From positions 1 to 38,652 of the forward strand of contig JACMPM010000072.1 in the NCBI GenBank assembly GCA_014377485.1: a DNA stretch of 38,652 nucleotides. Direction: 5' to 3'. The notes beneath the pieces were generated by a model, which was not told the origin of the DNA, searched no databases, and saw nothing but the letters and a program-made list of their open reading frames with translations. The translations under genes were made by a program, and so were the position numbers. The stretch comes from Bacteriovorax sp. Its GTDB lineage: Bacteria; Bdellovibrionota; Bacteriovoracia; Bacteriovoracales; Bacteriovoracaceae. Within the stretch, counting starts at the first letter, position 1. Each line of letters opens with the position of its first letter. Positions 2,579 through 23,139 of the stretch are shown in pieces.

Positions 2579-2923
2579 TTATTGTTTTTCTATTATTGTG
2601 CCTTCATTGAAGTCAAATTTGCTGTCGAATTTTACAACAGAATAATGATCATTTATTAAACTTGTTACTTCGCCAGAACCTAATTGTACTTTTTTACAAG
2701 GAGTTACTTTTCCAGCGCGGCTAACTCTGTTTGCATCTGGTGTACAAACATTCTGAAACGCGACGACTTTATCACCAACTTTAACTTCTTTATCTCCCAA
2801 GCAAACGTGGGCTTCTGTATCGCTAATTTTCATTGCAACACTTCCTCTCATTGTAGAGTGTGAGGCGCATCCCACTAAATTTGCGATAAGTAAAAAAGTT
2901 AAAAAATTTTTAATTGACTTCAT
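2579..2923 (-). CDS. Small lipoprotein divergent from csoR
   Basis: The frame extends further upstream, but the ATG at 2923 is preceded by GGGAG and starts a clear lipoprotein signal (MKSIKNFLTFLLIANLVGC, lipid Cys at 19), so I place the start there. The mature protein of about 95 residues is beta-rich, with three further Cys (in HVCLG, NVCTP and TPCKK) and a GDKVVAF turn like an SH3-type fold. I do not recognise a named family. It is transcribed from the promoter that overlaps the CsoR-type operator and leads into the YtkA-like gene, so it is probably part of the metal response. Confidence 0.75.
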   Translation of the reverse strand: MKSIKNFLTFLLIANLVGCASHSTMRGSVAMKISDTEAHVCLGDKEVKVGDKVVAFQNVCTPDANRVSRAGKVTPCKKVQLGSGEVTSLINDHYSVVKFDSKFDFNEGTIIEKQ

Positions 2924-2958
2924 TAAAGACTCCCGTGTAATTGTTACATTGTGAGGAT

Positions 2959-2987
2959 ACAATACTCCCCCTAGGGTATAATGTGAA
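2959..2987. promoter_or_regulatory. Divergent promoter with CsoR-like operator (core 2962-2979)
   Basis: The 18-bp core ATACTCCCCCTAGGGTAT is an imperfect inverted repeat: ATAC/GTAT arms around a C-tract and G-tract. This is the layout of CsoR/RcnR-family operators. Leftwards, TTCACA (2987-2982), 17 bases and TATTGT (2964-2959) form a plausible promoter with the core in its spacer. Rightwards, a perfect TATAAT lies at 2977-2982, overlapping the operator's right arm; its -35 is not clear. Binding here would block both directions. The site sits between the lipoprotein gene and the csoR-like gene. Confidence 0.65.
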
Positions 2988-3017
2988 TTTAAATAATATA
3001 TTTTCAAGTTGGGTGTT

Positions 3018-3344
3018 ATGAAAAGTAAGAAAGTTTCTACAATTATAAAAAGTGTCGAGTCACATAATCACCCTGATCATCGTATTCATCTTAAACAACT
3101 AGCAAGAGTTAAGGGCCAAGTTGAAGGTATAGAGAAAATGATTCTAGAGAGTAGGTATTGCATAGATATTATCAATCAATTAAAAGCTGTTTCCGCTGGT
3201 CTAAAGGTGATTGAATCTGCAATATTTGAAGGGCATTTGAAGAGTTGTGTTGCGGCTGCTTTAGCATCGAACGACAATGAGGACATTCAAAAGAAAATTA
3301 ACGAAATTAATAAACTAGTCTACGGTACAAAATCAAAAAGGTAA
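3018..3344 (+). CDS. csoR: CsoR-family copper-sensing transcriptional repressor
   Basis: A 108-residue all-alpha protein of the metal-sensitive repressor family (DUF156; CsoR/RcnR/FrmR). The signature QLARVKGQVEGIEKMI (about residues 27-42) is clear. The ligand positions are C48 (RYCID), H73 and C77 (GHLKSC). The gaps of 25 and 4 residues are exactly those of the copper ligands C36/H61/C65 in Mycobacterium CsoR; RcnR has His at the last site and FrmR lacks the Cys there. Copper(I) sensing is therefore the best reading. I chose ATG 3018; an in-frame TTG at 3009 would add three residues. It is first in the rightward operon and six bases from the next gene, so the operon is probably autoregulated and derepressed by copper. 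Confidence 0.88.
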   Translation: MKSKKVSTIIKSVESHNHPDHRIHLKQLARVKGQVEGIEKMILESRYCIDIINQLKAVSAGLKVIESAIFEGHLKSCVAAALASNDNEDIQKKINEINKLVYGTKSKR

Positions 3345-3349
3345 TTAGA

Positions 3350-5011
3350 ATGAACAAGACTTATTTTATTGCAAAAATGTTAGCACTAACTTGGATATTA
3401 ACTTCGTGTAAAGATGGTAATTTACCAAATCTTAATGGGCGTTACCAAGGTTTTATGACGATAGGGAATGCTAGAACACAGATTGTCGCTCAAGTCCCAG
3501 ATTTTAAGAAAGAGTCAAAGGTTAGAACTTTAACTTTTAAGATTTACCCGACACTCGCAAGTTCAGCTGGTAATCAATATTCTCTTACAATTTTAGATAA
3601 AGAAACAATCGAACTTAAAAGTTCACAAATATACTCAGGGAGTGCAAATTTAAATTTAAATTCGGATAAAAATTGTGTTAAAGGGACTGCTGCTCCCCAG
3701 ACCATTATAGCTTGTTGGGAACAAAACAAATTTACACTTTCTATTAATGATAAATTAAATCCAGAAAAGTCAATTTTGATAAATCTAAATTTGGATAAAA
3801 ATTTAGCTCCTTTGGAAGCCAATAAAATTTTATCAATCGATGAACTTGTTGGTCGTGCAAAATTTAACAATTATACTGTTACCGAAGAATCAGAAAGAGT
3901 TTTTCAAGCTCAAAAAAGTATTGGCGTGGCCAGGGGAAACCTCTTGCCTAAATTAAGTTTGAAATCACTCTTAGGTTTAGCAACAGGTGACTATGTTTCA
4001 GCGGTAGGGACTGTATTGCCATTTTTGTTTCCTGGAAACTGGTATAAATGGGAAGCATCCAAAGAACTTTATCAGGCTGAAAAAACTTCATTTGCCACCT
4101 TAAGAGGAAATGAAATGAATATGGTAGAGGGGCTTTATTATATTATTCTTCGTGATCAACAAGTGCTTGAACGTCTGAAGAAACATATTACATGGATGAA
4201 ACAGATTCAGGATACTATCAAACAATCTGAGAAAGTTGGAACTGTTACTCAAGGAACAGCAGATTATTTTGGTTTAAATATTGGGATTTTAGAAAGAGAC
4301 AAAATTAATTTTGAAGCTCTTATTAAAATTCAATATGCTCAACTGGCAGAAGCTTCGGCCCTCTCACCAATTAATGGAATTGCGGGACTAATCGCAATTT
4401 CGGTTCCAGACTTATCTGGTATGGATGCCTTAGATCCATCTACTTTTTTCAAAGAAGCTCAAGACTACTCGTATGAATTAAAGTCTCTTGGATTTCTCTT
4501 GAAGGCAGCAAAGACATCGCAAAAAGAAATTTATTTTAATTTTTTCGATCTAGAAGGAAATAATGGAATTGGTTTCGGTACACATTCCCAAATCTTAGTT
4601 TCTAAATCTCAACAAGAAGAGATCAGTAAAAAAATTGATGAAACCAAGTCATTAATCGAATTACAATCTTCAATGGTCGCAAATGAATACAATCAGGCAT
4701 TAGATAGCTATCAATTAGCAGAATCGAATAAAAATACTTCTTTAAAGCGCTTTAATTGGCTTATCAGTCGATTGCTCCAAGGTGATGGAGCTATTGATAG
4801 TGAAGAGTTTGTTAATGAATTAACAGATATTCAAAATAAAATTATTGGCTTTACAGCTGACGAAGCTACTAGCGCGCAAATGTGGTTAATGGCGAAGTCA
4901 AAATTAAATCGACTTATGCTCAAGGGTTATTATTCTGACCTTGAAGCTGCATTACCAGATGAACCGATCGTAAAGAGTCGCGATGAAAATTCTCATGTTG
5001 GGGGAAATTAA
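3350..5011 (+). CDS. TolC-like outer-membrane efflux lipoprotein with extra N-terminal domain
   Basis: The 553-residue product begins with a lipoprotein signal (LTSC, lipid Cys at 20). Residues of about 25-150 form a beta-rich domain (GRYQGFMTIGNARTQI, with a second Cys pair near 105-120) unusual for this family. From about 160 the sequence is alpha-helical with long heptad-like stretches typical of outer-membrane efflux proteins (AQKSIGVARGNLLPKLSLKS; a second long helix pair at about 410-470). It probably forms a trimeric channel. No RND pump or membrane-fusion partner lies in the window, so the partner is elsewhere or the protein has another role. It follows csoR by five bases with AAGG before the ATG. 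Confidence 0.75.
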   Translation: MNKTYFIAKMLALTWILTSCKDGNLPNLNGRYQGFMTIGNARTQIVAQVPDFKKESKVRTLTFKIYPTLASSAGNQYSLTILDKETIELKSSQIYSGSANLNLNSDKNCVKGTAAPQTIIACWEQNKFTLSINDKLNPEKSILINLNLDKNLAPLEANKILSIDELVGRAKFNNYTVTEESERVFQAQKSIGVARGNLLPKLSLKSLLGLATGDYVSAVGTVLPFLFPGNWYKWEASKELYQAEKTSFATLRGNEMNMVEGLYYIILRDQQVLERLKKHITWMKQIQDTIKQSEKVGTVTQGTADYFGLNIGILERDKINFEALIKIQYAQLAEASALSPINGIAGLIAISVPDLSGMDALDPSTFFKEAQDYSYELKSLGFLLKAAKTSQKEIYFNFFDLEGNNGIGFGTHSQILVSKSQQEEISKKIDETKSLIELQSSMVANEYNQALDSYQLAESNKNTSLKRFNWLISRLLQGDGAIDSEEFVNELTDIQNKIIGFTADEATSAQMWLMAKSKLNRLMLKGYYSDLEAALPDEPIVKSRDENSHVGGN

Positions 5012-5599
5012 GTGAAGCAATTATTTTTATCAATTTTATTTTTAGTTCAAATTTCAACTCAGGCTTTTGCAAGTCCTACAGTAGAAGATTTAAATTATTA
5101 TAGACAACTTACTCAAGCAATCAGAACACAGGCACAGTTCAAAGTTTCTTTGATTAATCAAGACGAATTTTATGATTATTCATTAGAACTCGGCGAACCT
5201 GTTTACAATGAGCCTATAGTAAGTGATCTGCCAGTAATGGATCAATCTGATAAATTTTATAGAAATTTTTGGGATAGAATCTATTTGAAGGATGGATCGA
5301 GAGTTGTAATTAATGGTGAGGAAGTGCCTCTGACTTGCATTTTTGTTAGTGGCCAGGATAATCGATATTCTGGATTAACTGATCCTCGTTTTCCACAGTT
5401 TATAATGAAGATATATTTGGTCGCAAATGATTTCACTTGCGTAGGTCCTAAGAACCCAGGGTGGCCGAATAATGGAGCGAAAGAAGAAACATGGGATACC
5501 TACCTCTACTATGAAGTAAAAGATCCGACCATAATGTTGCCAGTTGAAGCAAAAATTCGTGTCAAGTGGAATGAATTTAAATCGGTCTTAGTTAAGTAA
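5012..5599 (+). CDS. Secreted protein of unknown function, 195 aa
   Basis: The GTG start at 5012 directly follows the stop of the TolC-like gene, with GGGGGAAA as ribosome-binding site, so translation is probably coupled. A signal peptide covers about residues 1-20 (TQAFA). The mature part looks beta-rich, with two Cys (LTCIF, FTCVG) that could form a disulfide, and a conserved-looking YLKDGSRVVINGEEVPL segment. I do not recognise the family. Its place between other exported proteins in the CsoR-headed operon suggests a periplasmic or outer-envelope role. Confidence 0.7.
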   Translation: MKQLFLSILFLVQISTQAFASPTVEDLNYYRQLTQAIRTQAQFKVSLINQDEFYDYSLELGEPVYNEPIVSDLPVMDQSDKFYRNFWDRIYLKDGSRVVINGEEVPLTCIFVSGQDNRYSGLTDPRFPQFIMKIYLVANDFTCVGPKNPGWPNNGAKEETWDTYLYYEVKDPTIMLPVEAKIRVKWNEFKSVLVK

Positions 5600-5614
5600 G
5601 TTAATGGAGCTAGC

Positions 5615-6529
5615 ATGAAAAAGATTATTTTCTTATTTTTGATCACAATTACAAGTCTTACTCGAGCTGAAGTCATTTGGTATCCTTCACCTCCTGAAGC
5701 TTATAAATTAGGCGATGTTTATCCAGAAGCTCAGAAGCTTCTTTTCGCATTTGATTATGGTCATGCACTCGTATACGAGACATTGATTTTAAAAAAAGGT
5801 GATATCAAAAATCCGAAGCAATTTGAAAAAGAAATGTTGGCAAAGATTTTTAGTATTCTTAATAATCCACCTAATATTAAAATGGATGAAGGTGATATCG
5901 CTCCTAATTACGTTTACAAATTTCCATTGGTCATTAATTTGTTTGATTGGTCTCATATGCTACATCAATTTGTTTTAGATGTTTTAGCGACTTCTGAAGA
6001 TCGTGGCCCAAGAATGATATCTAGAATAAATGAAATCTATGAACTATATAAATCAAATAAACCCGTCATGATAACTGATTCTTGTAAGTCTATGCTATTT
6101 ATGGATGGGCAATACTTTTCTAAATCTTTTAGAAGACAATTTCCAAGTTTTAATCTTTTAATTTGGAGTTATCACTGGTTTCAAATCAAATTGTATGAGG
6201 CACTTCTTGCTCCAACTAAAATGGAGAGAGATTTTGGCGTAATGGATACAATTGCAAAGTTTAAAAATTTAATTTCAGATTTACCTGATTCTGCGGATTT
6301 CGATATGATGCCTGAAACGGCGACAGAAGCTCCTACTTTTGCAAAACTTTTTCCAAAAATCCCGGCAGCATTTGATAATAATCACATGTTGCATGATATT
6401 GTTTCTGACATGCTTACTTCAGATAAAGTACCTACTGATAAATTGCGATCAGAAGCTATCCGCATGGGGCGTATGGATCAAGACCCAGAAGCATTTAAAA
6501 CAACTCATTGCAATCAATATAACGAATAG
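5615..6529 (+). CDS. Secreted four-repeat His/acidic helical protein, putative metal binder
   Basis: The 304-residue product has a signal peptide (about 1-18, LTRA). Four helix segments about 64-73 residues apart carry a repeated motif. Repeat 1 is FDYGH (H50, with E55). Repeat 2 is FDWSHMLHQFVLD (H114, H117, D122). Repeat 3 is SYHWFQIKLYE (H187, E195). Repeat 4 is FDNNHMLHDIVSD (H257, H260, D265). Repeats 2-4 fit H-x2-[HQ]-x4-[DE], and three of the four start FDxxH. A four-helix bundle holding a metal or di-metal centre with His and carboxylate ligands is a natural reading, but it is inference and I know no named family. GGAG precedes the ATG; it lies 15 bases after the previous gene. Confidence 0.75.
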   Translation: MKKIIFLFLITITSLTRAEVIWYPSPPEAYKLGDVYPEAQKLLFAFDYGHALVYETLILKKGDIKNPKQFEKEMLAKIFSILNNPPNIKMDEGDIAPNYVYKFPLVINLFDWSHMLHQFVLDVLATSEDRGPRMISRINEIYELYKSNKPVMITDSCKSMLFMDGQYFSKSFRRQFPSFNLLIWSYHWFQIKLYEALLAPTKMERDFGVMDTIAKFKNLISDLPDSADFDMMPETATEAPTFAKLFPKIPAAFDNNHMLHDIVSDMLTSDKVPTDKLRSEAIRMGRMDQDPEAFKTTHCNQYNE

Positions 6530-6537
6530 GTTTGATT

Positions 6538-7773
6538 ATGATAAAGTTTATTTTTTTAATATTTTCATTTCTTACTATTAGTTTTTCTTCAGCTGAAGTA
6601 ATTACTTGTTCAAAGGATTACAGTAATTCTGATGTTGATCCTGCATATAGATTGAAAGATTTTAAAATTCAATATGAAAAATATTTTACAGGAAGTTCGC
6701 TAGGAGCACTTCAAGCAAAAGGGCAAATTGGTTACGCAGGAATTCGCTCACAGGTTAAAAGATATTATTCACAGAAAAAATTTCTTTATAAGTCTTTACT
6801 AGATGATGCTGAACTTAATTTAATCTTAACAAATAATTCTAAAGAAATTGACTCTTACAATGGAATTTTAACATTAGATAAAGGATCTAGTCATGAACGT
6901 GTTTTAACTGATCTACATTGCACATTGATTGGCACTCTTGATGCTCCTTTTCAATGTGCTGAAACACAGGCTAAAAATGATCAATCTTTGTTTGATGCAA
7001 TTCTTACCTCTGATTTGGATGAAGTAAATTACACTTTGGAATGTGGAGCTGATACAAATAGCGTAAACAAAGTAGGGTGCACACCTCTTTTAAATCTTCT
7101 CGATTCACAATGTGGAACCAGGTTGACTCGGTCAATATACCCATTTTCTCCAATGAAATTAAATCAATTATCCTCTCTTTTGATAGATAGTGGTACAAAT
7201 ATAGAAGGGCAAGACCCTATCAATCAGCAGACTGCTCTTCATAAAGCAGTATTGCTAAATAATTCTGATGTAGTAAAAATGTTAGTTGATCTTGAAGCAA
7301 ATATTAATTCTCAAGATAGCAATGGCCTTACTCCTTTAATGCTATCGGTTTTTTCGGGAGACTACTTTTTAGTTAATGACTTACTTACTGCTAACGCCAA
7401 TATCGAATTGAAAAATAAAAAAGGTAAAACTGCTTACGATTTAGCGAAAGACTTAGGCCGAGAAGACATTGCAGAACTTCTCTTGCCTGTAAAAAGTTCA
7501 ATTTTAATTTCTGGAAACTCAAATGATATAGGATGTTCTGTAAGTAAAATTGAGCTTGTTAAGAATGAAGTTGTCGAAATTATTTTGAAGTCTAGCTCAA
7601 ATAAAATGTTTCGTTTACTTTCACCTGAGCTGGGAATTGACCTAATGGCACAGCCAAATGAAAAAATTAAGGCGAGATACACACCTAATTCAATTGGAAC
7701 TTTTAATTATATATGTGGTCCCCATGGTGCACAAGATAGTCAACAAACTAAAGGTGTAATTATTATAAAATAA
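6538..7773 (+). CDS. Secreted ankyrin-repeat protein with C-terminal cupredoxin-like domain
   Basis: I place the start at ATG 6538, giving 411 residues with a signal peptide (ending FSSA). Residues of about 25-145 are unassigned. About 150-320 are ankyrin repeats (QTALHKAVLLNNSDVVKMLV, then GLTPLMLSVFSGDYFLVNDL and GKTAYDLAKDLGREDIAELL). The last 85 residues look like a cupredoxin: a FRLLSPELGI strand, a PNSIGTFNYICGPHG loop and a final GVIIIK strand. C393 and H396 occupy the Cys/His loop of cupredoxins, but the usual first His, before FRLL, is replaced (NKM), and no distal Met is evident. Copper binding may be altered or lost. It starts nine bases after the His-repeat gene. Confidence 0.75.
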   Translation: MIKFIFLIFSFLTISFSSAEVITCSKDYSNSDVDPAYRLKDFKIQYEKYFTGSSLGALQAKGQIGYAGIRSQVKRYYSQKKFLYKSLLDDAELNLILTNNSKEIDSYNGILTLDKGSSHERVLTDLHCTLIGTLDAPFQCAETQAKNDQSLFDAILTSDLDEVNYTLECGADTNSVNKVGCTPLLNLLDSQCGTRLTRSIYPFSPMKLNQLSSLLIDSGTNIEGQDPINQQTALHKAVLLNNSDVVKMLVDLEANINSQDSNGLTPLMLSVFSGDYFLVNDLLTANANIELKNKKGKTAYDLAKDLGREDIAELLLPVKSSILISGNSNDIGCSVSKIELVKNEVVEIILKSSSNKMFRLLSPELGIDLMAQPNEKIKARYTPNSIGTFNYICGPHGAQDSQQTKGVIIIK

Positions 7774-7801
7774 TTTACTAACTTTAAAACTGGAGAAAAT
7801 T

Positions 7802-8431
7802 ATGAAAAATGTTAAGAGCCTTTTGTTTTCACTTGCCTTCACAACGCTTGCGAGCAGTACTTTATTTGCGGCCGATTTAACTGTAGCACCAGGAAAGGCA
7901 GTTGAACTTAGTTGCCACCGTCTTGAGCGATTAGTGACATTAGGAAAAGTTGAAGATTCATTTTTATCTAAGCTGAGTTCGTTACAAATAACTCTTCTTC
8001 AACCAACTAAACCAACAGACCCATCTTATAAAGTTGTTGCCAGTCAAGTTGCAGGTGCTGACGGAAGTTCAAAGCAGGTAGAAATGATGTTGGATGCAAC
8101 TGGGAAGGGTATTGCTCAAAATGTAAAAGCAGGAACTGAAGCTCAGAACGCTCCTGTTTGGAGTGATAAAAATGCTGCTGATCTTGTAGAGAACTCACTT
8201 CATTATATTCTAGAATCAAATAATGCTGATGCTAAGCCTTTCGTATCTGGTCTTACTTCCTTAAAGTTAATTCAGGTAAAAAATGACCAAGGTCAAATTA
8301 TGGCAAGAGTTGTAATGTTATCAAAAGATAGTGCGAAAAAATTTGAAGTCACACTAAAAGAGGATGGCACTGTTGATTCGGCAAATTTAATTGACAACGC
8401 GCCAGAAGCTACGGACTCAGCTAATTTATAA
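7802..8431 (+). CDS. Secreted protein of unknown function, 209 aa
   Basis: A clear signal peptide spans about residues 1-23 (STLFA). The mature protein has a single Cys in ELSCHRLERLV (about residue 38), next to a His and an Arg/Glu-rich helix, and two predicted alpha/beta halves (LQITLLQPTKP... and LKLIQVKNDQG...). The end is Ala/Asp-rich and probably disordered. I do not recognise the family. TGGAG precedes the ATG with good spacing. It lies 28 bases after the ankyrin gene and 12 bases before the cytochrome lipoprotein, so it belongs to the same operon. Confidence 0.7.
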   Translation: MKNVKSLLFSLAFTTLASSTLFAADLTVAPGKAVELSCHRLERLVTLGKVEDSFLSKLSSLQITLLQPTKPTDPSYKVVASQVAGADGSSKQVEMMLDATGKGIAQNVKAGTEAQNAPVWSDKNAADLVENSLHYILESNNADAKPFVSGLTSLKLIQVKNDQGQIMARVVMLSKDSAKKFEVTLKEDGTVDSANLIDNAPEATDSANL

Positions 8432-8443
8432 TTTGAGGCGACT

Positions 8444-9136
8444 ATGAATCTAGGGATTAATAAATTAATTTTTTTAATAATGATTAGTTTACTAGTCTCT
8501 AGCTGTAGTTATCGAAAAGAAAAAGAATCAAACTTTTTAGTCTCATATAATCAGGCCATGCTTGATAAAGTTTCATATCAGTTAATTAATCAAAAAATAT
8601 TTATTCCTAAATGTATTTCATGCCATGGGAATTCAGGAAATGTTAATCTTGAATCTTATATTTCAGCCTATGGTCACGTAGATAAAATTAGAGAAGTTAC
8701 ACTATTAACACACAAGATGCCAAAATCACCTTATCCAGCACTTAACAATGAAGAACTTGTTTTATTGGCCACATGGATTCATGCAGGTGCTCCTGAAAAA
8801 CCTCTCGGAGGAGGAGGCGATTTACCGCCACCCACGACTGAGCCTCTAGAGCCAAAATTTTCATCAATTAAGAAAAATATTTTACAAACTAAGTGCTTTG
8901 TTTGCCATTCTGCTGGAAAAGAAGGTGAAAGAGTTTCCCTGAATAGTCCCGAGGATATGATTAATTCCCCTTTAGAAATAGTTATTCCTGGAAACCCTGA
9001 CGAAAGCGATTTAATTCTTGTCGTCTCACCAGATGCTCGAAAAATAATGCCTCCAAAAAAATCTGGAATGGCAAGTTTGAAACCTGAAGAAATAGAAACA
9101 ATTAAACAATGGATCGCAAATGGTGCAAAAGATTAA
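8444..9136 (+). CDS. Di-haem cytochrome c lipoprotein
   Basis: The 230-residue product is a lipoprotein (LLVSSC, lipid Cys 21) with two haem c attachment motifs, CISCH at 57-61 and CFVCH at 151-155. Each is followed by a Met that could be the distal ligand (HKMP near 92; RKIMPP near 205) and by an acidic helix ending in WIHAGA or WIANGA. This is the layout of duplicated class I/planctomycete-type cytochrome c domains. A Gly/Pro-rich linker (about 121-135) joins them. It should carry electrons at the periplasmic face of a membrane. GAGG precedes the ATG. Its end overlaps the YceI-like gene by 17 bases. Confidence 0.88.
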   Translation: MNLGINKLIFLIMISLLVSSCSYRKEKESNFLVSYNQAMLDKVSYQLINQKIFIPKCISCHGNSGNVNLESYISAYGHVDKIREVTLLTHKMPKSPYPALNNEELVLLATWIHAGAPEKPLGGGGDLPPPTTEPLEPKFSSIKKNILQTKCFVCHSAGKEGERVSLNSPEDMINSPLEIVIPGNPDESDLILVVSPDARKIMPPKKSGMASLKPEEIETIKQWIANGAKD

Positions 9137-9725
9137 TGCTCTTAAAATTATCACTTTAATTCAAGTTTCTTTATATTCGATGACTGGCTTTGCTCAAATC
9201 GATAAAATTGAAATAAACCAAAATAAATCTTCTGTAGAATTTCTCTGCATTGGGAACCCCAGTGCTTTGAAGATCAAAGGTGAGAAGGCTAAAGTTCAGG
9301 GACAAATCAGTAATACTGAAAATATATTTGGTGCAAAGCTCAAAGTTGATCTCAATGAATTTGTTACAGGCATTGATATGCGTGATGAACATATGAAAGA
9401 AAAATATTTTGAAACTGATAAGCCAGAAAATAGATATGCAACTCTTGAAATTATTAATTTGAATATTCCTGAAAGTTTTTGGAAAAAGAATGAAGAATTC
9501 AAAGGCGAATTTAAAGGCAAGCTACTATTGCATAATGTAGAAAAAGATATTTCAGGAAAAATAACTTTTTCTCCTTATAAAAAAGGCGCTGAAGTCATAA
9601 CTGTTTCAAGTTTTCCCATAAAGCTCTCTGATTTCAAAATTTCCGTACCATCCTTTGTAGGTATAACGGTTGCCGAAGATGTAAATATTGAAGTCAAACT
9701 TCCATTAATTGTTGTCGAGAAATAA
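9120..9725 (+). CDS. YceI-like periplasmic lipid-binding protein
   Basis: The 201-residue product has a signal peptide (about 1-25, ending GFAQ) and the single-domain YceI lipocalin-like pattern. This includes a start strand (KSSVEFLCIGNP), the central DMRDEHMKEKYFETDKPEN motif characteristic of the family, and a late KGKLLLHNVEKDI strand. YceI proteins bind polyisoprenoids or quinone-like lipids in a beta-barrel and often sit beside cytochromes, which fits here. The ATG lies inside the end of the cytochrome gene; no strong ribosome-binding site is visible, so coupling is likely. The stop overlaps the next ATG (TAATG). Confidence 0.85.
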   Translation: MVQKINALKIITLIQVSLYSMTGFAQIDKIEINQNKSSVEFLCIGNPSALKIKGEKAKVQGQISNTENIFGAKLKVDLNEFVTGIDMRDEHMKEKYFETDKPENRYATLEIINLNIPESFWKKNEEFKGEFKGKLLLHNVEKDISGKITFSPYKKGAEVITVSSFPIKLSDFKISVPSFVGITVAEDVNIEVKLPLIVVEK

Positions 9726-10831
9726 TGAAAGTTTATCTTCTTTTTTTATTATTGTGTTTTCATACGCCAGGATATTCTTATTCGGAATTGTCCAGGCATG
9801 GTTATGTTAACTGCACTGCTTGCCACTTAAGTCCTTCCGGTGGAGGGATAATGACTCCTTATGGTAGGGAGCTTTCTAGGGCGGTGGTCAGTACATGGGG
9901 GGCAAAAAATGAGCAATATTTTGCTTATAATGCAATTCCGGCTTTATCAAAAAATGAAAAAATATTAGTAGGTGCTTTTGTAAGAGGCTTACAGGCGATA
10001 AGAAATGATAAACAGGCCACAGAAGCAAGGGCCATTCTCATGCAAGCTGATGTTGATGTCGCTTACAATGAGAAGAACTGGGCGGTTCTAACGTCTTTAG
10101 GTCGCCAAGAGATAAGAAGTGGATTGAATAGTGATTCAAGGTTATTCAGCAGGAGACACTATGCTATTTATCGTTACAATTTTTCAAATCAGTTTCGTGC
10201 TGGAAAGTTTTTACAGTTTTATGGACTAAATGATCCGAATCATCAACTCTATGTGAGAAAGTACTTGAACTTTGGTTTTGATACAGAGTCATACAATGCT
10301 GAATATTCTTATCTAGGAGAAAATTTTAATTTTTATTTAACCTCAAGTTTCGGGAATTTTGGTGATATACATTCCCAAAATACAGAGAAAGGTATTTCTG
10401 CTTCAACGAGCTATTTTTTTTGGGATAAGCAAAAGGTTGGCTTAAGCACTTACAGGGGAACTGAGACATTTACCAATAGAATTACTTATGGAGTTTGGGG
10501 GATTTTTTCTTTTCATCCAAAAATATTCACAATGCATGAATTGGACTTCCAGAATAAAAAGATCAAATCGAGTGGAATAAAGCAATCAGGTTATGTCACC
10601 TCAAATAAAATAAATTACGAATATGTCCGAGGTCTCATTGGTTTTTTAAGTTATGATCTGGCCAATTTAAACCCGGCAAATATCAGTTCTAGAAAATTTG
10701 CGTATGGGGCGGGAGTCCAGTTCTTTCCTCGACCACATTTCGAATTAATTTCAGCATGGCAGAAAGAAGAAATTGTTCATTTAAAATCACAATCAGATTT
10801 ATTTTCATTCATCCTGCATTTTTATCTATAA
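9725..10831 (+). CDS. Outer-membrane beta-barrel with N-terminal haem c motif
   Basis: The 368-residue product has a signal peptide (about 1-18), then one haem c motif CTACH at residues 30-34 within a short Gly/Ser-rich segment (LSPSGGG). The rest, from about 75, is alternating amphipathic strands of an outer-membrane barrel (WAVLTSLGRQEI, YAIYRYNFSNQF, FNFYLTSSFGNF), ending SFILHFYL with an aromatic penultimate position. A cytochrome fused to its own barrel suggests electron transfer to or across the outer membrane. It is last in the CsoR-headed operon, with a one-base overlap with the YceI-like gene. No clear terminator follows. Confidence 0.8.
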   Translation: MKVYLLFLLLCFHTPGYSYSELSRHGYVNCTACHLSPSGGGIMTPYGRELSRAVVSTWGAKNEQYFAYNAIPALSKNEKILVGAFVRGLQAIRNDKQATEARAILMQADVDVAYNEKNWAVLTSLGRQEIRSGLNSDSRLFSRRHYAIYRYNFSNQFRAGKFLQFYGLNDPNHQLYVRKYLNFGFDTESYNAEYSYLGENFNFYLTSSFGNFGDIHSQNTEKGISASTSYFFWDKQKVGLSTYRGTETFTNRITYGVWGIFSFHPKIFTMHELDFQNKKIKSSGIKQSGYVTSNKINYEYVRGLIGFLSYDLANLNPANISSRKFAYGAGVQFFPRPHFELISAWQKEEIVHLKSQSDLFSFILHFYL

Positions 10832-11223: not shown

Positions 11224-11379
11224 ATGTCTCGACGTTTATTTTTTATAAGAAGTTCTTTTTTTGGCGTTTCTGTTGATATTTTTCTTACGAATAAATTCTC
11301 CTTATGGAGAATACCTCTTTATATCAGTATATGTTTTTTTAAAAAACATAACAAGTGCACGAGACATTTTTCCATTTAA
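11224..11379 (+). CDS. Possible small basic protein, 51 aa
   Basis: ATG 11224 has GGAAGGGA six to eight bases upstream, at the end of the GC-rich island. The product (MSRRLFFIRSSFFGVSVDIF..., ending KHNKCTRHFSI) is basic, hydrophobic in the middle and unlike any family I know. The reading frame also contains two strong hairpins, so the DNA may act as RNA instead. I rate it as possible only. Confidence 0.22.
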   Translation: MSRRLFFIRSSFFGVSVDIFLTNKFSLWRIPLYISICFFKKHNKCTRHFSI

Positions 11380-11400
11380 AATTGGACTGAAAAACGAGTA

Positions 11401-11443
11401 GTTTTAAATCCAAGGTCACATTTTGTGACCTTGGATTTAAAAC
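11401..11443. repeat. Perfect 19-bp inverted repeat with 5-base loop
   Basis: GTTTTAAATCCAAGGTCAC (11401-11419) and its exact complement (11425-11443) flank the loop ATTTT. No T-run follows in either direction, so it is not a standard intrinsic terminator. It lies about 450 bases before the stop of the convergent gene. It could be a transcription-stop structure, a protein-binding palindrome or a mobile-element end. Confidence 0.8.
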
Positions 11444-11890
11444 CGTAAAGCCTCAGTAAAGTTTTTTACCGTACTTTCCAAAATTGATTAAAAAAATCTC
11501 AAAAAAATTACAAAAGCAGCTCTTAGGCGTTCCTTGTTTTCAAAAGGCGGTCCCCGATTATTGATTAGTTTTAAATTTATTAGTCTAATTTAGGCTATAC
11601 TCTATTAAGCTTCCTTATTCCTGATTTTGCTTGTATTTCTCTGGGCTTGGTCCCGATTTTTACGCCCGGTCGCTGGATCTATTTCTTTAAAAAGATAAAA
11701 ATGAAAGAGCAAAGAATTTTTATAAACTAAATTCTGCTTATGGCCGAAGTAGCAGTATCGAAATTTACTCCACTCTCATACCATGAGCTAACACAACTCT
11801 TCATAGACACTAAAAAATGCTCAGAGTTAGTAATGGGTAAAATCTTAAGAGTCTTTTTTGCCTGCCTATTAGAGTTTTTTTGAAATCCTA

Positions 11891-15078: not shown

Positions 15079-15624
15079 ATGAGTAAAACAAATCAAGAAT
15101 ACATATACGACGCAGAAGAATCAAACGTTGACCATGCCACTAATGAAGCTTCCGCTGGCCCGGTTCTTATGGGAAGAGAGAGAGAATACTTCGATCGCAG
15201 AAACCAGACGGTTAAAGAATTTGTTGAACATCAAAGGAATGCAGATCTGGAAGTTGAGCAAAAAAAGAAAGTTGATACCAGTAAACAGCTTTTTGGAATT
15301 AGTAACCAAAATCATAATCATAGAGTATCACTTGATGAAAAATTTCCTGGAGACATGTTTTATAAAGTGACAACTGATCACATGAGTCCGCTAATTCCCA
15401 TTAATAGCTACGTTCTTCTGAAATTTTGTGATCAACATGCTAGTGGTGAAGTCTGCGTCTATCGCTACCGAGGTCAGACTTATTGCAATCAAATAAAAGT
15501 TATAAAAAACAAAGTTATTGCGATTTCAATAAACTCTAAATACATGTCAGTAGTTTTAAACGCTGACGATTATTATTTTATTGCAGTCGTTTCTTCAATT
15601 CATCGTTCATTAAAAGGTAGCTAA
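15079..15624 (+). CDS. S24 (UmuD/LexA-like) protein with both catalytic residues replaced
   Basis: The 181-residue protein has a charged N-terminal 90 residues without a visible helix-turn-helix, then an S24 fold. The segment TDHMSPLIPINSYVLL (99-114) aligns without gaps to the family pattern GDSMxPxIPxGSYVLV, which puts H101 where the nucleophilic Ser should be. The segment YCNQIK (135-140) aligns with the YVKRIK-type strand, which puts N137 where the Lys general base should be. Self-cleavage is therefore not expected. Its stop overlaps the start of the UmuC-type polymerase gene by one base, so it is probably that enzyme's UmuD-like partner, perhaps constitutively in a binding form. Confidence 0.78.
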   Translation: MSKTNQEYIYDAEESNVDHATNEASAGPVLMGREREYFDRRNQTVKEFVEHQRNADLEVEQKKKVDTSKQLFGISNQNHNHRVSLDEKFPGDMFYKVTTDHMSPLIPINSYVLLKFCDQHASGEVCVYRYRGQTYCNQIKVIKNKVIAISINSKYMSVVLNADDYYFIAVVSSIHRSLKGS

Positions 15625-16940
15625 TGCTTACCAAAAGTTTATTCAGCAAGAATCGCATTGCAATTTATGATGTGAATGGCTGCTACGCTATGGTCGAAGG
15701 AGTATTTAGGCCTGAAATTCGTGGGGAACCAATTGCAATATTAGGTAATACAGGCGGAATTGTAATAGCAGCTTCGCGAGAAGCAAAAGATTTAGGTATT
15801 GATATAGGTACTACTGCATGGGAAATAAAAAAAGTTGCCAAAGGTAATCATGTATATGTTTTCTCCGCTAACTTTGAAACATATGCCTACTTCTCTCGCC
15901 TACTTTTTACAGAATTAAGAAAATTTACCCCTCATTTATTTGTTTATTCAATTGATGAAGGTCTATTTGAAGTTGATCATATTCCCATTGAAAATCTATT
16001 AAAATTTGGAATGGAGGTTAATAGAGCAGTTTACCTTAACACTAGATTAGAAGGATGTATTGGTTTTGCCCCAAATATAACACTTGTTAAAATCGCAGTA
16101 AAAATTGCTAAAAAGAATCCAATTTATAAAGGTGTTTTTGAAATTAATGAATTGAATCTAGATTGGGCCCTAGAAAAAACTCCTGTTGAAAAACTATGGG
16201 GTATTGGTAAATCACGTGGAAAACAATTAAGAGCTCTAGGAATTAACAATGCAAAGCAATTTAGAGACTATTCATCCCCTGAAAAAATTCAAAACCTTCT
16301 CACGATTAATGGAAGAAAAATTCAACTTGAACTTCAAGGAGTTCAGTGTTTTAGAATTGATGAACCAATTGAAAAAAAACAAGAAATTTCACACAGTCGA
16401 ACTCTAGGAAGTAAAACAAATGATCTTGATTATCTTAAACAATCCTTAGCAACGTATGCAACGCTCGCATCTGAAGATATGAGAAGACAGGGATCTTTAT
16501 GCAAAGAAGTTGGTTTATTTTTGTGTACAGATTTTCATAGCCCAGATTTGCCACAATTTGGCGATAGTATAAAAATGTCTCTACCGACTTACACAATGGA
16601 TACTGTTAAAATTATCGAAACTATCTGGTCGCTACTAGAATCAATATATGATCCGCAATTTGAGTATAAAAAAATAGGAATATCATTAAAAAAACTTCAG
16701 GATTTTGAATCACATCAATTCTCTCTTTTTAACGAAGATGACGATCCAAAAAGAATTGGTCTTATGAGAACAATTGATGAGATTAATGCAAAATATAAAC
16801 CAGACACTATACGTAGTGCCGCTTGCGGATTGGGTAATGGGAACTTTGAAGCGAAACGACCAATGATGACACCGTCGTATTGTACGAATTGGGGGGAGGT
16901 GCCAATTATTGATACGGTTATTACACAGAAGGAAAAATAG
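15624..16940 (+). CDS. umuC: UmuC-type Y-family DNA polymerase (Pol V catalytic subunit)
   Basis: The 438-residue product matches UmuC along its length. D16 in YDVNGCYAMVE and D111/E112 in YSIDEGLF are the metal-binding carboxylates, and Y21 is at the steric-gate position. The thumb region has the VEKLWGIGKSRGKQL helix-hairpin-helix, the C-terminal (little finger) domain starts near 255 (EISHSRTLG), and QFSLF near 370 is a likely sliding-clamp motif (compare QLNLF in E. coli UmuC). All catalytic residues are intact, unlike its S24 partner. The enzyme performs error-prone synthesis across damaged bases. It is translated from an overlapping start; AAAGG precedes the ATG. Confidence 0.92.
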   Translation: MLTKSLFSKNRIAIYDVNGCYAMVEGVFRPEIRGEPIAILGNTGGIVIAASREAKDLGIDIGTTAWEIKKVAKGNHVYVFSANFETYAYFSRLLFTELRKFTPHLFVYSIDEGLFEVDHIPIENLLKFGMEVNRAVYLNTRLEGCIGFAPNITLVKIAVKIAKKNPIYKGVFEINELNLDWALEKTPVEKLWGIGKSRGKQLRALGINNAKQFRDYSSPEKIQNLLTINGRKIQLELQGVQCFRIDEPIEKKQEISHSRTLGSKTNDLDYLKQSLATYATLASEDMRRQGSLCKEVGLFLCTDFHSPDLPQFGDSIKMSLPTYTMDTVKIIETIWSLLESIYDPQFEYKKIGISLKKLQDFESHQFSLFNEDDDPKRIGLMRTIDEINAKYKPDTIRSAACGLGNGNFEAKRPMMTPSYCTNWGEVPIIDTVITQKEK

Positions 16941-17252: not shown

Positions 17253-18311
17253 TCAAAACTGATACATTAACTGGCCAGAAGTCTCAAAGCTTTTATCCTT
17301 AAATTCTTCTGGATGCGTGGTAAAACTGTTCAATTGTGCAGGCGTGCACATTAGATAAGGTGAATTCGGAGTTCCCATTCCGCCTCCAAAACGGGTTGTC
17401 ACTCTTGATCCTTTACAAACTTGTTGTTCATTGGCCGCGATAAAGACCCGAACGGTGGATTGAGAGTCATTTTGAACAAGCTCCCTTGTGGAAGCGAAGG
17501 CCTTTGTTCTAGGTGTCCCTGTTAGCGGTAATTCAACAGCATCCTCATCTTGGACAATTTTTTGAGTCACGCACCCTTCATCCGTATAGTAGAGATTGAT
17601 TTTATACTCGATTCCGGCCTCATTCGAGTCAGGTAATGATAATGTAAGGGGAGAGATAAATTTCTCATTTGAAGTGCTTATTGATTGACCAAAACCGGAC
17701 ATTGAATCGATTGCTACACAGCGAGACTCTAGTGATTTTCCGATGAAAGTTTTTTCGCCATTATTGTTTTGAAATTCAGGTAACGAAATTTTTAAGAAGG
17801 TTGCATAACCTCTGTTCTTAACTTGTTTATCGCATTTAGAAGTTTCGCCGAAATTATTTATTTCATAGATATTACGACAAATGATAAAGTCTCTATTGGG
17901 AAAATGAACGTCTTTGTTTGATGAAACACTAGGTGAGTAGGTAAAATCTTGGTTGTTACAATCAGAATTAGACATAACAATTTTAAAATTGTAATCGTCA
18001 CCTTGTAATTTAACTTTTTCAATTTTTCCACAATATGCTTTCCCCTCAAAGTTACCTAATTGATCGCTAGATACCTTTTCCCATCCAATGGCAAAAAAAC
18101 TCCATGTATCGTTATTGAAATCTAATTTAAGATTTTGGGGAGGGACTTTTTTTAAGAAACTTCTTCCATCTAAGCTTTTACCAAAAAGAATAAAGCCATT
18201 AGAAAATTTATTAGCCGTTTCATTGAAGCTAAAAGAAACATTAGAAATAGGTCTAGGCTTATTACATGAAATAAGAGAAACCAAAAAAATAGTAATGAAG
18301 ATTCTTCTCAC
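17253..18311 (-). CDS. Lipoprotein with cysteine pairs, unknown function
   Basis: The 352-residue product has a short lipoprotein signal (VSLISC, lipid Cys 16). The mature part is beta-rich with about ten Cys, often in pairs, suggesting disulfides. Near the C-terminus is [22 protein letters not shown], a motif of the PY.IC...QLN type that recurs in surface lipoproteins of Bdellovibrio relatives. The start overlaps the end of the ABC ATPase gene by four bases (ATGA type), so it is the last gene of that operon. It might serve the transporter, possibly as a substrate-capture component, but there is no recognisable binding-protein fold. Confidence 0.7.
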
Positions 18312-19630
18312 TCTTCTTCCTCAGAAGCAAAGATGACCTTTCTATTTAAGTCATAATCCAGAATTTCGGCAAATCGCCCCCAATCAACAATGGTATCAAA
18401 TATTTTATCTGCATTTTCATAAGGAAGCTTGTCGGCAATTTCTTCTTGCAACGAAGCCTCGCTGACTTCTTTTTGCTTTTCTAACCTACGCAGAATGATT
18501 TTAAATAAGTTTAACTTTTTTATTTGATCTCTAAAAATAATTTTTCTTTCTAGAGTATTCGCACTTACAAGTTGATGCCCTAATGGAGTAAGAACTACAT
18601 CGTGCTTTGGGGTTTCAACTAATTCTAAAAGTTCCAGCGCTTTTGTAAGGGAAATTGTTAGTCCGAATTCTTCTCTCATTTGTGCTGACAAATCAAAAAT
18701 ATCAACTATACCTTTATCAGTGGCTATCATTTCGAGTAGGCCGATCATTCTTCCTGCTGTAACTGGAGGAATTGATTCTATACGAGTTGTTAGTTCAGAA
18801 ATAAAGAGTTCCTTCATATCTCTTGGAGTAGAAAATGATTTTTCACTTTCCTTTTCTTTATCTGGAAGAGTTAAGTTGGTAATCATGTCGTGAATTTCAT
18901 CAACCATTGTTTGAAATTCAGAAGACTTTTCATTTCGTGGATAAGAAAGCTCATTTTTAATATCGTAAACAATACTTCCTGGATTGCTGGAAAGAATTAA
19001 AATCCTTGAGGCCATGGAAACCGCATCTTGGATATTGTGAGTAACCATAAAGGCCGATTTAAAACCAGCATCTCCATTTTGCCAAAGACGGATAATTTCA
19101 GCTCGCAAGTTTCTAGCAGTATAGACATCTAAAGCGCTAAAGGGTTCATCCATGGCCAAAATTTCTGGTTTAGCTACCAAGGCACGGGCAAAGCCTACAC
19201 GTTGTCTCATTCCACCGGATAATTCCTTTGGGTATGCATTTTCATGTCCTCCAAGACCTATAAGATCGAGGGCCTTTTCAATTTCATCGTCTTCTTCTGT
19301 CTTACTTAACTTTCTTTGATTAAGTCCAATCCGTACATTTTCAGCGACAGATAACCACGGATAAAGAGCAAAGCTTTGAAAGACTATAGCAACGTCGGAG
19401 TTAACATCGTTAAGTACTTCTTCATGATGTAAAACTTTTCCAGTGCTCGCTGGAATTAGACCTGACATTATTCGAAGTATGGTTGATTTCCCTGAACCCG
19501 ATTGACCCAGGAGAGCGATGAATTCACCTTCGGAAACGGATAAGTTAATATCTTTTAAAATTAAAACATCTTGATCATTTTCAAGATTATATGTTTTTGA
19601 AATTTTTTCTAAGGAAGTAATTACTTTCAT
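18308..19630 (-). CDS. NitT/TauT-family ABC transporter ATPase with C-terminal AAA-associated domain
   Basis: The 440-residue product has a full ABC domain: Walker A GQSGSGKS (42-49), Q85 loop, signature LSGG (137-140), Walker B ending DEP (161-163) and switch His (THN, 198). It groups with nitrate/sulfonate/taurine-type ATPases by [15 protein letters not shown]. Residues of about 270-435 form the C-terminal winged-helix AAA-associated domain found in a subset of these ATPases, possibly regulatory. It is followed within eight bases upstream by the permease gene and overlaps the lipoprotein gene. The substrate is unknown. Confidence 0.88.
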
Positions 19631-19638
19631 AAAATCAC

Positions 19639-21396
19639 CTATTCCAAATGAAACTTATCAGCAGATAGTTTATAAAGCTTTCGCCATACAAGGCGGTTAA
19701 TAAGAACAACAAAGATAGACATCGTAGCAATACTTAAAAAAATGGCACTCCAATTTCCTTCGCTGGTAGCTTGCGAAATATAAGATCCAAGGCCTTGAGC
19801 AATTAATTTTTGTTTTCCAAAATTAGCGTATTCGGCAACAATGCTTGCGTTCCATGCACCACCTGCGGCAGTGCACGCTCCTGTTACCCAAAAAGGAAAG
19901 ATGGCCGGAATAATCATTTTTGACCAAAGCTTGATTCCCTTTAAATTGAAAATGCGAGCACATTCTTTCATGTCATTAGGAATAGAAGATGCGCCAGCAA
20001 TAATATTAAAAAACACATACCATTGACTACCAAGTGAAAGAAGAAAAATACTTCCCCAATTCATACCAATATTATGGTTTATAAAAAATGCTACGACGAT
20101 GGGGAAGGTCATATTGATTGGAAACGAAGCTCCAATTTGGGCCAGTGGTCTAACGATCTTGGCAGTACTCGGACGAAATCCGACCCAGACTCCAATGGGA
20201 GTCCAGATAAGTGTTGAAACTATAACCATAAGAAAGACTCTTAACATCGTATAAGTTCCAAGTTTTAGAACGAGGATAATATCATCAAATGAAAATTTAT
20301 TTTTAATCTGATTAAAAGCAAAATAAATGATGTATGTGACAACTCCAAAAACAAAAAGATAAAAGAAAAAATCGAAAAGATGATTTTCTTTTATGCCTTT
20401 TTTCTTTCTTTTCTTTTTTAAAAAAGTCATGGTTCCGAGACTAAAAAACCAATTAAAGAAAATATCAATTGAACTCAAGATAAGATCAACCAACTTATTA
20501 ACTAGTTTTGACTTATTTAATATTTCAAAAATAATTGATTTTGGATTTTCCGCCGAATCAACTTGTTCGTTTTTAAACTTCATTGACCAAACAGTGATTG
20601 GCTTCCAGAACAATAGATCTATTAAAATGATAGTTGTGACCATGGCAAGAACAGCATAGAGAGCGGCCCTCGTGTCACCTTTTTCTAATGCCATACCCAT
20701 ATATGAACCAATTCCTGGGAGCTTGATATTTTTTCCAAGGACAGTAATCATTTCACTTTGAACAACGAAAAACCATCCACCACCAAAACTCATCATTGAG
20801 TTCCACACGAGTGAGATTGTCGAATTCGGTAATTCTAGTCTTGAAAATCTTTGCCAAGGGTTGAGCTTATATACTTTTGAGACTTCTTGCAGGTCATTAG
20901 GAAGGGTTATTAAGGAGTGGTAGAACCCTAAGGTCATATTCCAAACTTGGCCTGTGAAAATGGCAAATAGACTTGCTAATTCCACACCCAATAAGCTGTG
21001 AGGAAAAAGCGACATAAATCCAGTGACTGTGATAGATAAAAACCCCAAAACTGGCACAGATTGTAAAATATCAACCATCGGAATTATTAGAGAACGAGCA
21101 CGTTTACTTCTATAGGCCCAATATCCGATAGTCGTTGTAAATAATAAAGAGGCTCCATATGCGAGAAACATTCGAAAAGTGCTTCTCATCATATAATAAG
21201 GAATTCTATCGTAGTTAAGATTTAAATCTTGAAAACCAGATGTCGTATAAGGAACGTTCATATCTTTAATTAAGCTGATCGCTAGCCATAAGGAAGAAAT
21301 GAACATTAGAAGGGCGATAAGATCACGCCAAGTGAAATCAAAATCTTCAATTAAAAAAGAAAGTGAAAAATTAAATATAGGTTGTCGTTTTTGCAT
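19639..21396 (-). CDS. Fused double ABC transporter permease, NitT/TauT type
   Basis: The 585-residue product contains two BPD-type permease domains in tandem, each about 250 residues with six helices. Each has a cytoplasmic coupling loop: [20 protein letters not shown] near 165-185 and [20 protein letters not shown] near 455-475. A basic linker with KKKRKKK (about 328-336) separates the halves. The fusion supplies both membrane subunits of one importer. No periplasmic binding protein gene lies nearby. It is the first gene of the leftward operon and is preceded by a long leader with an inverted repeat. Confidence 0.87.
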
Positions 21397-22377: not shown

Positions 22378-23139
22378 CTAATGAGATTCTTGAGCTGCTC
22401 TATGAGGAAAAATCAAAATAAAAGCAACCATGAAGGCCAAAAGAGCAGCAGAAGCTGAGTAACGACTCAAGTTTAGTCCACCCTTAGCAATTGGCTTATC
22501 TAAGAAATCTCCTACTACAGCACCTAATGGTCTCGTTAATACGAAAGCTGCCCAAAATAGCAAAGTGCGAGAAATCTTTGTCCAAAAATAAAGTACAATC
22601 ACCAGGGCCAATGCTCCACCAAAGACGACAGCACTACCTAAATATCCAAATCCTGCTGAATCTGCCATCCAGTCGCCTAATGCCGTACCTAAAGTCTGAG
22701 AGAACATAATAGTTATCCAGTAAAACATCTCCGATTTGGGATTACTAACTGAGTTCACGTTGATTGAACCCATCGTTTTATGCCAAATAAAAAGAGAAGC
22801 TAATAAAAGGATAATTAGAATTGTAGTTCCACCTGTATAACCTATTCCGAGTGAGCGGTCGACGTAATCCGCCATTGTTGTCCCGACAGTTGTAGTCGCA
22901 ACAATCGTAATCCAATAAACTATAGGATGAAATTTATGAGCCTTAATTTGAAAGTAAACGGCCACTAAAAAGATTACTGCAAAAATAAGTGTGCTGACCA
23001 AGTAACCTAAATTCATCGACATTGAAACTGCATCTCCACCTGTTTCTCCAAGTGTAGTTGCTGCAATTTTAATGATCCAAAAAACGAGCGTTAATTCTGG
23101 GACCTTACTTAATCCCTTCTCCATGTTGGTCTGTTCCAT
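22378..23139 (-). CDS. DUF347 (COG4705) repeat membrane protein
   Basis: The 253-residue product has about eight transmembrane helices made of four repeats. Each repeat begins with a (K/T/S/R)-x-x-(T/G)TxG(x)xxxD segment: AATTLGETGGDAVS, ATTTVGTTMADYVD, FSQTLGTALGDWMA and LTRPLGAVVGDFLD. The second helix of each repeat starts near a GYLGS/GYTGG-like turn. This fourfold motif defines the DUF347 family, whose function is unsettled; it has been linked to metal tolerance and transport. AGGAG precedes the ATG by five bases. It stands alone in the leftward direction. Confidence 0.85.
   Translation of the reverse strand: MEQTNMEKGLSKVPELTLVFWIIKIAATTLGETGGDAVSMSMNLGYLVSTLIFAVIFLVAVYFQIKAHKFHPIVYWITIVATTTVGTTMADYVDRSLGIGYTGGTTILIILLLASLFIWHKTMGSINVNSVSNPKSEMFYWITIMFSQTLGTALGDWMADSAGFGYLGSAVVFGGALALVIVLYFWTKISRTLLFWAAFVLTRPLGAVVGDFLDKPIAKGGLNLSRYSASAALLAFMVAFILIFPHRAAQESH

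Follow-up and report, generated by a model that had tools for sequence, protein, structure and literature searches.

Organisation of the window

The window analysed here is the whole of contig C14 (JACMPM010000072.1, 38,652 bases) of a 3.95 Mb Bacteriovorax genome (Bdellovibrionota), and its first base is the contig end. Near this end lie nine close-packed genes on the plus strand (3009-10831), of which the first encodes a CsoR-type repressor and the other eight encode exported proteins. This block and its control are the subject of the present analysis, which follows up an earlier note made from the sequence alone. The genes are separated, in order, by 5, 0, 15, 2 to 8, 28 and 12 bases, and the last two junctions are overlaps of 17 and 1 bases; the coordinates thus confirm the run of nine genes with gaps of at most 28 bases or overlaps that the note described. 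No terminator-like site was found on the plus strand within the run, the first being at 11295. A near-perfect 20-pair inverted repeat (11400-11444), past the end of the operon and before the gene that follows, is terminator-like on the minus strand.

All nine genes are on the plus strand: csoR (3009-3344, start probably at 3018) is followed by the genes for a TolC/OEP-like lipoprotein of 553 amino acids (aa; 3350-5011), for p195, an exported beta-barrel-like protein of 195 aa without known family (5012-5599), and for His304, an exported all-helical protein of 304 aa with six invariant His (5615-6529). An ankyrin-cupredoxin fusion (6532-7773, start probably at 6538) and p209, an exported protein of 209 aa (7802-8431), are encoded next, and the run ends with the genes for a di-haem cytochrome c lipoprotein (8444-9136), a YceI-family protein (9120-9725) and a mono-haem (CxxCH) protein with a barrel-like C-terminal part, the haem-barrel protein (9725-10831). 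Two genes diverge from the operon on the minus strand: one for a small lipoprotein (2579-2923; 114 aa from an ATG at 2923), with homologues in the copper loci L009, L010, L011 and L054 of relatives, and one for H252, an exported protein with two HxHP-type motifs (1804-2562). The divergent pair shares the control region of the operon, as had been said; the lipoprotein most likely starts at 2923 and not at 3007.

Export signals were called from a hydrophobic N-terminus and a lipobox, with no trained predictor. As claimed earlier, every product downstream of CsoR (8/8) carries a hydrophobic signal or a lipobox at its N-terminus, which supports an envelope location. Lipoboxes are present in the TolC-like, di-haem and divergent 114-aa proteins, and the remaining products have plain signal peptides.

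Conservation of the block

Relatives were sought in 369 genomes of Bdellovibrionota (loci are labelled L and genomes G). Strong His304 matches were found in 15 genomes and strong p195 matches in the identical 15, with the two genes adjacent in all of them (15/15). The p209 gene comes next in each of the 14 loci where the contig continues (in the window, the ankyrin-cupredoxin gene intervenes), and a gene for a c-type haem protein stands behind p209 in 13 of 14 loci. This protein is near-core; it has one CxxCH motif in L052 and L055, two in most loci and five in L011. As judged by gene order, the core of the block is p195-His304-p209-haem protein under a predicted CsoR operator, and the TolC-like, YceI, haem-barrel, ankyrin-cupredoxin and small lipoprotein genes are optional. 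H252 is encoded in 13/15 block genomes, and also elsewhere. L053 reads OEP-cl9-CusA-cl14-H252 and, divergently, CsoR-p195-His304-p209-dihaem-YceI-barrel-ATPase. The earlier note had named a gene order not kept in relatives as a possible refutation; the comparison shows that the core order is conserved.

The nearest relative in the comparison is a Bacteriovorax metagenome-assembled genome, with a His304 of 92% identity. The block is patchy: it is present in 4 of the 14 genomes searched in the window's own genus, and it is found across several families of Bdellovibrionota, in scattered predatory-type bacteria; Bdellovibrio sp. qaytius, which can be cultured, is among the carriers. The His304 tree is discordant with these families; horizontal transfer is suggested, because G145 (f3) is separated by supported splits from its congeners G135 and G140. 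Contig C126 (L022, 3371-6697) carries a second, decayed copy of the block: the C-terminal parts of His304 and p209 survive as fragments, the di-haem gene is intact, and a copper-type ATPase gene lies back to back with this copy; an operator with at most one mismatch was not found at this copy.

CsoR and its operator

CsoR matched PF02583 at 77.2 bits (cut-off 22.8). Its ligands are arranged as Cys-x24-His-x3-Cys, with 25 residues from Cys to His and 4 from His to the second Cys, which is the classical spacing; the identification as a CsoR-type regulator with exact copper-ligand spacing is borne out by this score and these distances. The same Cys-His-Cys set is retained among the CsoR proteins of the block in relatives. 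The top NCBIfam match was the copper sensor RicR, far under the cut-off of that model (63.7 against 175).

A putative CsoR operator (TACTCCCCCTAGGGTA, 2963-2978) sits between the divergent H252/lipoprotein genes and the csoR operon. It is of the TACCC-N5/6-GGGTA type with one mismatch, and overlaps a -10-like TATAAT (2977-2982); a -35 element could not be assigned in the window, and a scan for promoter-like sequences performed no better than on shuffles. Operators of this type occupy the same place in nearly all relatives. Across the 17 compared loci there are 15 perfect TACCC-N5/6-GGGTA sites, against 0.24 expected from shuffles, and all 15 are in the control regions of csoR, p195, H252 or cus genes; L012, L014, L052 and L055 have two operator copies each. 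A relaxed form of the pattern has only four matches in the window's own genome, and two of these are at the two csoR genes. In L052 and L055 the operator is kept upstream of p195 though csoR is not adjacent to p195, so that the block itself appears to be under CsoR control. The experimentally tested CsoR boxes of Streptomyces lividans copZA1, copZA2 and csoR (PMC3902906) and of the Bradyrhizobium csoR-cueA divergon (PMC5057107) agree with the block operator.

Copper genes around the block

A CPx-ATPase, a CusA-type pump or a multicopper oxidase is encoded within about 10 kb in 10 of the 14 other loci. The identities were checked on representatives: the copper-translocating ATPase scored 600 with TIGR01511 (cut-off 397), the CusA-type protein scored 847 with TIGR00914 (CusA/CzcA family pump; cut-off 701), and the oxidase neighbour matched multicopper oxidase domains. 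Domain and family scans found no P1B ATPase, resistance-nodulation-division (RND) pump or multicopper oxidase among the operon genes of the window. The earlier note had stressed that a copper ATPase, a chaperone and an RND pump were lacking. This holds for the window contig, but not for the relatives, nor for the genome: contig C10 (L021, 1642-12857) carries a second csoR with a CPx-ATPase gene, a divergent CusA/OEP operon, whose CsoR operator (4588-4602 of C10) is perfect, and a multicopper oxidase gene. The pumps seemed to be missing only because the contig was viewed by itself. A literature search gave no paper on the control of copper in Bdellovibrionota.

His304

The His304 model (mean predicted local distance difference test score, pLDDT, 77.9) is all-helical and consists of four helical hairpins, with invariant His on the first helix of each hairpin. 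Over 20 homologues, including plasmid copies from Gemmatirosa (35% identity) and Methylobacterium, E195 and D254 are invariant along with H50, H114, H117, H187, H257 and H260. The His are laid out as a single His followed by HxxH, twice (3+3), and this six-His layout is kept as far as Gemmatimonadota and Methylobacterium. The description of the protein as a fourfold His/acidic repeat is upheld by the four modelled hairpins with conserved His, but clear similarity by profile (97%) is limited to repeats 2 and 4, the others being weakly alike. His304 had no sequence match in Pfam, NCBIfam or PDB, and profile searches with its alignments against PDB sequences produced no genuine match. Fold searches (Foldseek and a second look) returned only chance helical bundles (best Z 4.7), a result that is not firm on fold novelty.

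Type-3 copper sites have six His, three per copper. We liken His304 to type-3 copper proteins (tyrosinase, haemocyanin) from its sequence and model: six His in a 3+3 arrangement on helices, with one helix in each half giving a close His pair. The spacing differs, however, being HxxH in His304 and HxxxH in the type-3 proteins, and no family or fold match between them was found. We regard as unlikely the speculative idea that His304 founds a family of its own, of helical metalloproteins whose dinuclear copper site is type-3-like. In this block it would then oxidise or reduce periplasmic copper, on induction by copper and together with a c-type haem protein as its dedicated partner; the long homologues, paired with an exported barrel-like protein, would serve other roles in other phyla. 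Such a site stays hypothetical, no fold or family match having been found for His304.

The long relatives in question (about 470-510 aa) have the same six His and mostly adjoin a gene for an exported barrel-like protein, which in L059 belongs to PF13557. They were found in other Bdellovibrionota and in Methylobacterium (L057, 9072-11401; L058, 8482-10754; L059, 9460-11236; L060, 11064-13217; L061, 9650-12005), and a related pair occurs in Gemmatirosa.

Other core and divergent proteins

The p195 model is beta-barrel-like (pLDDT 81.8), and two Cys are invariant. Its fold search gave only weak barrels (best Z 7.1) and no convincing match, which is likewise not firm on fold novelty. p209 has invariant H39 and H134 and a weak similarity to DUF6488 in two relatives; a search of plasmids gave no p209 matches. 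The di-haem cytochrome lipoprotein was correctly recognised, with two CxxCH motifs and a PSCyt1 match at 37.1 (cut-off 22).

H252 belongs to a general copper-associated family. It is made of two halves with conserved HxHP-type motifs, its mature N-terminus is probably His, and a profile search of PDB sequences with the H252 alignment gave nothing real. On a plasmid of Staphylococcus capitis its relatives are encoded next to a metal ATPase and CopZ; in Gordonia their neighbours are a copper ATPase and a CsoR-type regulator, and in Hymenobacter an RND system.

Accessory proteins

The TolC-like and YceI-like assignments stood: the TolC-like protein has a single OEP match (27.7, cut-off 22) plus an extra N-terminal part without assignment, and the YceI-family protein matched PF04264 at 55.6 (cut-off 23.7). 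For the ankyrin-cupredoxin fusion, the ankyrin part is strong (59.5) but the cupredoxin part falls just under the cut-off (26.0 against 27); C395 and H398 are retained, but the first His that is usual in cupredoxins and the axial Met are both absent in all three homologues, so that the cupredoxin ligand set is incomplete. The ankyrin protein was also considered as a defence gene and rejected, the PADLOC hits reflecting shared ankyrin repeats only.

In the haem-barrel protein, the CxxCH is invariant in six homologues, in keeping with the haem part of the proposed fusion; the remainder is barrel-like by sequence. The family occurs in 247/369 genomes of the phylum, with up to five copies each, mostly outside the block. 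Its members, often several per genome, have an N-terminal CTACHxSPxGGG motif and a barrel-like remainder without Pfam match.

Other features of the window

Two short open reading frames at 1110-1761 resemble remnants. A homologue of the first adjoins a copper ATPase gene in L014 (16187-16858), and a fragment similar to the second is found at the start of contig C10. Further along the window, by sequence appearance only, are a UmuD-like and UmuC/DinB-like pair (15079-16940) and a nitrate/sulfonate-type ATP-binding cassette transporter with a fused double permease (18308-21396). A four-repeat membrane protein (22378-23139) matched DUF347 (PF03988) at 208.8 bits.

Interpretation and alternatives

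We read the block as a CsoR-controlled, copper-induced periplasmic copper-handling module, with a probability of roughly 60%. Copper-responsive control, as proposed in the earlier note, is well supported, because the block and its operator are conserved and copper-export genes adjoin the block in relatives; the CsoR ligands point the same way. The link to copper is firm for regulation and gene neighbourhood, whereas the biochemical role is one that we infer: the block probably serves to bind copper, and to detoxify it, beyond the inner membrane. Cytoplasmic Cu(I) would bind CsoR, which would release the operator and turn on both divergent arms. The exported products would there take over from CopA- and Cus-type pumps, whose genes lie elsewhere in the genome or, in relatives, beside the block. 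With less certainty, His304 may bind copper via its six invariant His, as two sets of three on four helices, and H252 and p209 may be further copper-binding or delivery proteins. The c-type haem protein might take or give electrons, such that copper would be kept in, or changed to, a less harmful oxidation state; this step, too, is less certain. The TolC-like, YceI, ankyrin-cupredoxin and haem-barrel genes would be locally recruited helpers.

Some observations weigh against this reading. L015 is without an operator and is the one locus in which the haem protein is missing, L054 has a degenerate operator only, and no copper pump was seen nearby in L012, L013 (a short contig), L015 and L055. The long His304 relatives are without clear copper context, except in L059. 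Copper as the sole signal is not proven, because some CsoR proteins also answer zinc and cadmium, as that of Bradyrhizobium does (PMC5057107). The CsoR/RcnR family as a whole senses several signals, and the module might answer another metal or stress (zinc, cadmium, silver or an electrophile) through a CsoR relative, and not mainly copper; the exact Cys-His-Cys copper set, the RicR match, low-scoring as it is, and the copper ATPase, Cus and multicopper oxidase neighbours nevertheless make this very unlikely. It is possible, but in our judgement doubtful, that the block performs plain sequestration, with His304, p195, p209 and H252 merely soaking up periplasmic copper, no redox role, and the haem proteins as bystanders. 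The many His-rich exported proteins would suit such a role, as would a haem protein that is absent in one locus and carries one to five haem motifs, but the recurrence of this protein behind p209 argues otherwise, and six strictly invariant His in a 3+3 layout are more like a defined site than a sponge.

The earlier note had favoured a link between copper handling and the transfer of electrons across the outer membrane, via the di-haem lipoprotein, the haem-barrel protein and YceI. The three genes are consecutive in the window and in L009, L018 and L053, but haem-barrel and YceI genes are missing from most copies of the block, the ankyrin-cupredoxin gene is also optional, and the haem motifs of the core haem protein vary between one, two and five. 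The proposal is not supported, because the barrel family is generic, found mostly away from the block, and has a single haem motif per barrel. With one CxxCH in the haem-barrel protein and two in its partner, there is no multihaem wire across the membrane; the block thus differs from MtrCAB and other porin-cytochrome conduits in having no multihaem cytochrome within a dedicated barrel, and we consider the proposal highly improbable.

Comparison with known systems

Among known systems, the csoR-cueA divergon of Bradyrhizobium liaoningense (PMC5057107) resembles the block in its CsoR, in a TATACCC-N5-GGGTATA-type box in the shared divergent region and in serving copper defence, but its output is a P-type ATPase, whereas the block exports everything but CsoR and includes three undescribed families. 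The copXL copper locus of Staphylococcus aureus USA300 (PMC5947656) is also repressed by CsoR and has spread horizontally, and it contributes a lipoprotein, CopL, that is extracytoplasmic; the block has no DUF1541 match, a larger exported set and no ATPase. The cop/cus genes (CopA ATPase, CusCBA, multicopper oxidase) are encoded beside the block in most relatives and, with a CsoR of their own, on C10, whereas the window block has no pump, chaperone or multicopper oxidase. CopI, a periplasmic cupredoxin, is copper-induced and needed for copper tolerance (PMC7558416); the window also encodes a cupredoxin, but as an accessory protein in which it is joined to ankyrin repeats and has neither the first His nor the axial Met.

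The block is a variant form of copper defence under CsoR: control by CsoR is known, and the new part is its three core families. Known periplasmic copper defence comprises a handful of proteins. To these the block adds three conserved, uncharacterised exported core families, whose link to copper comes from regulation, beyond gene neighbourhood, and one of the three is a candidate for a new histidine-based metal site.

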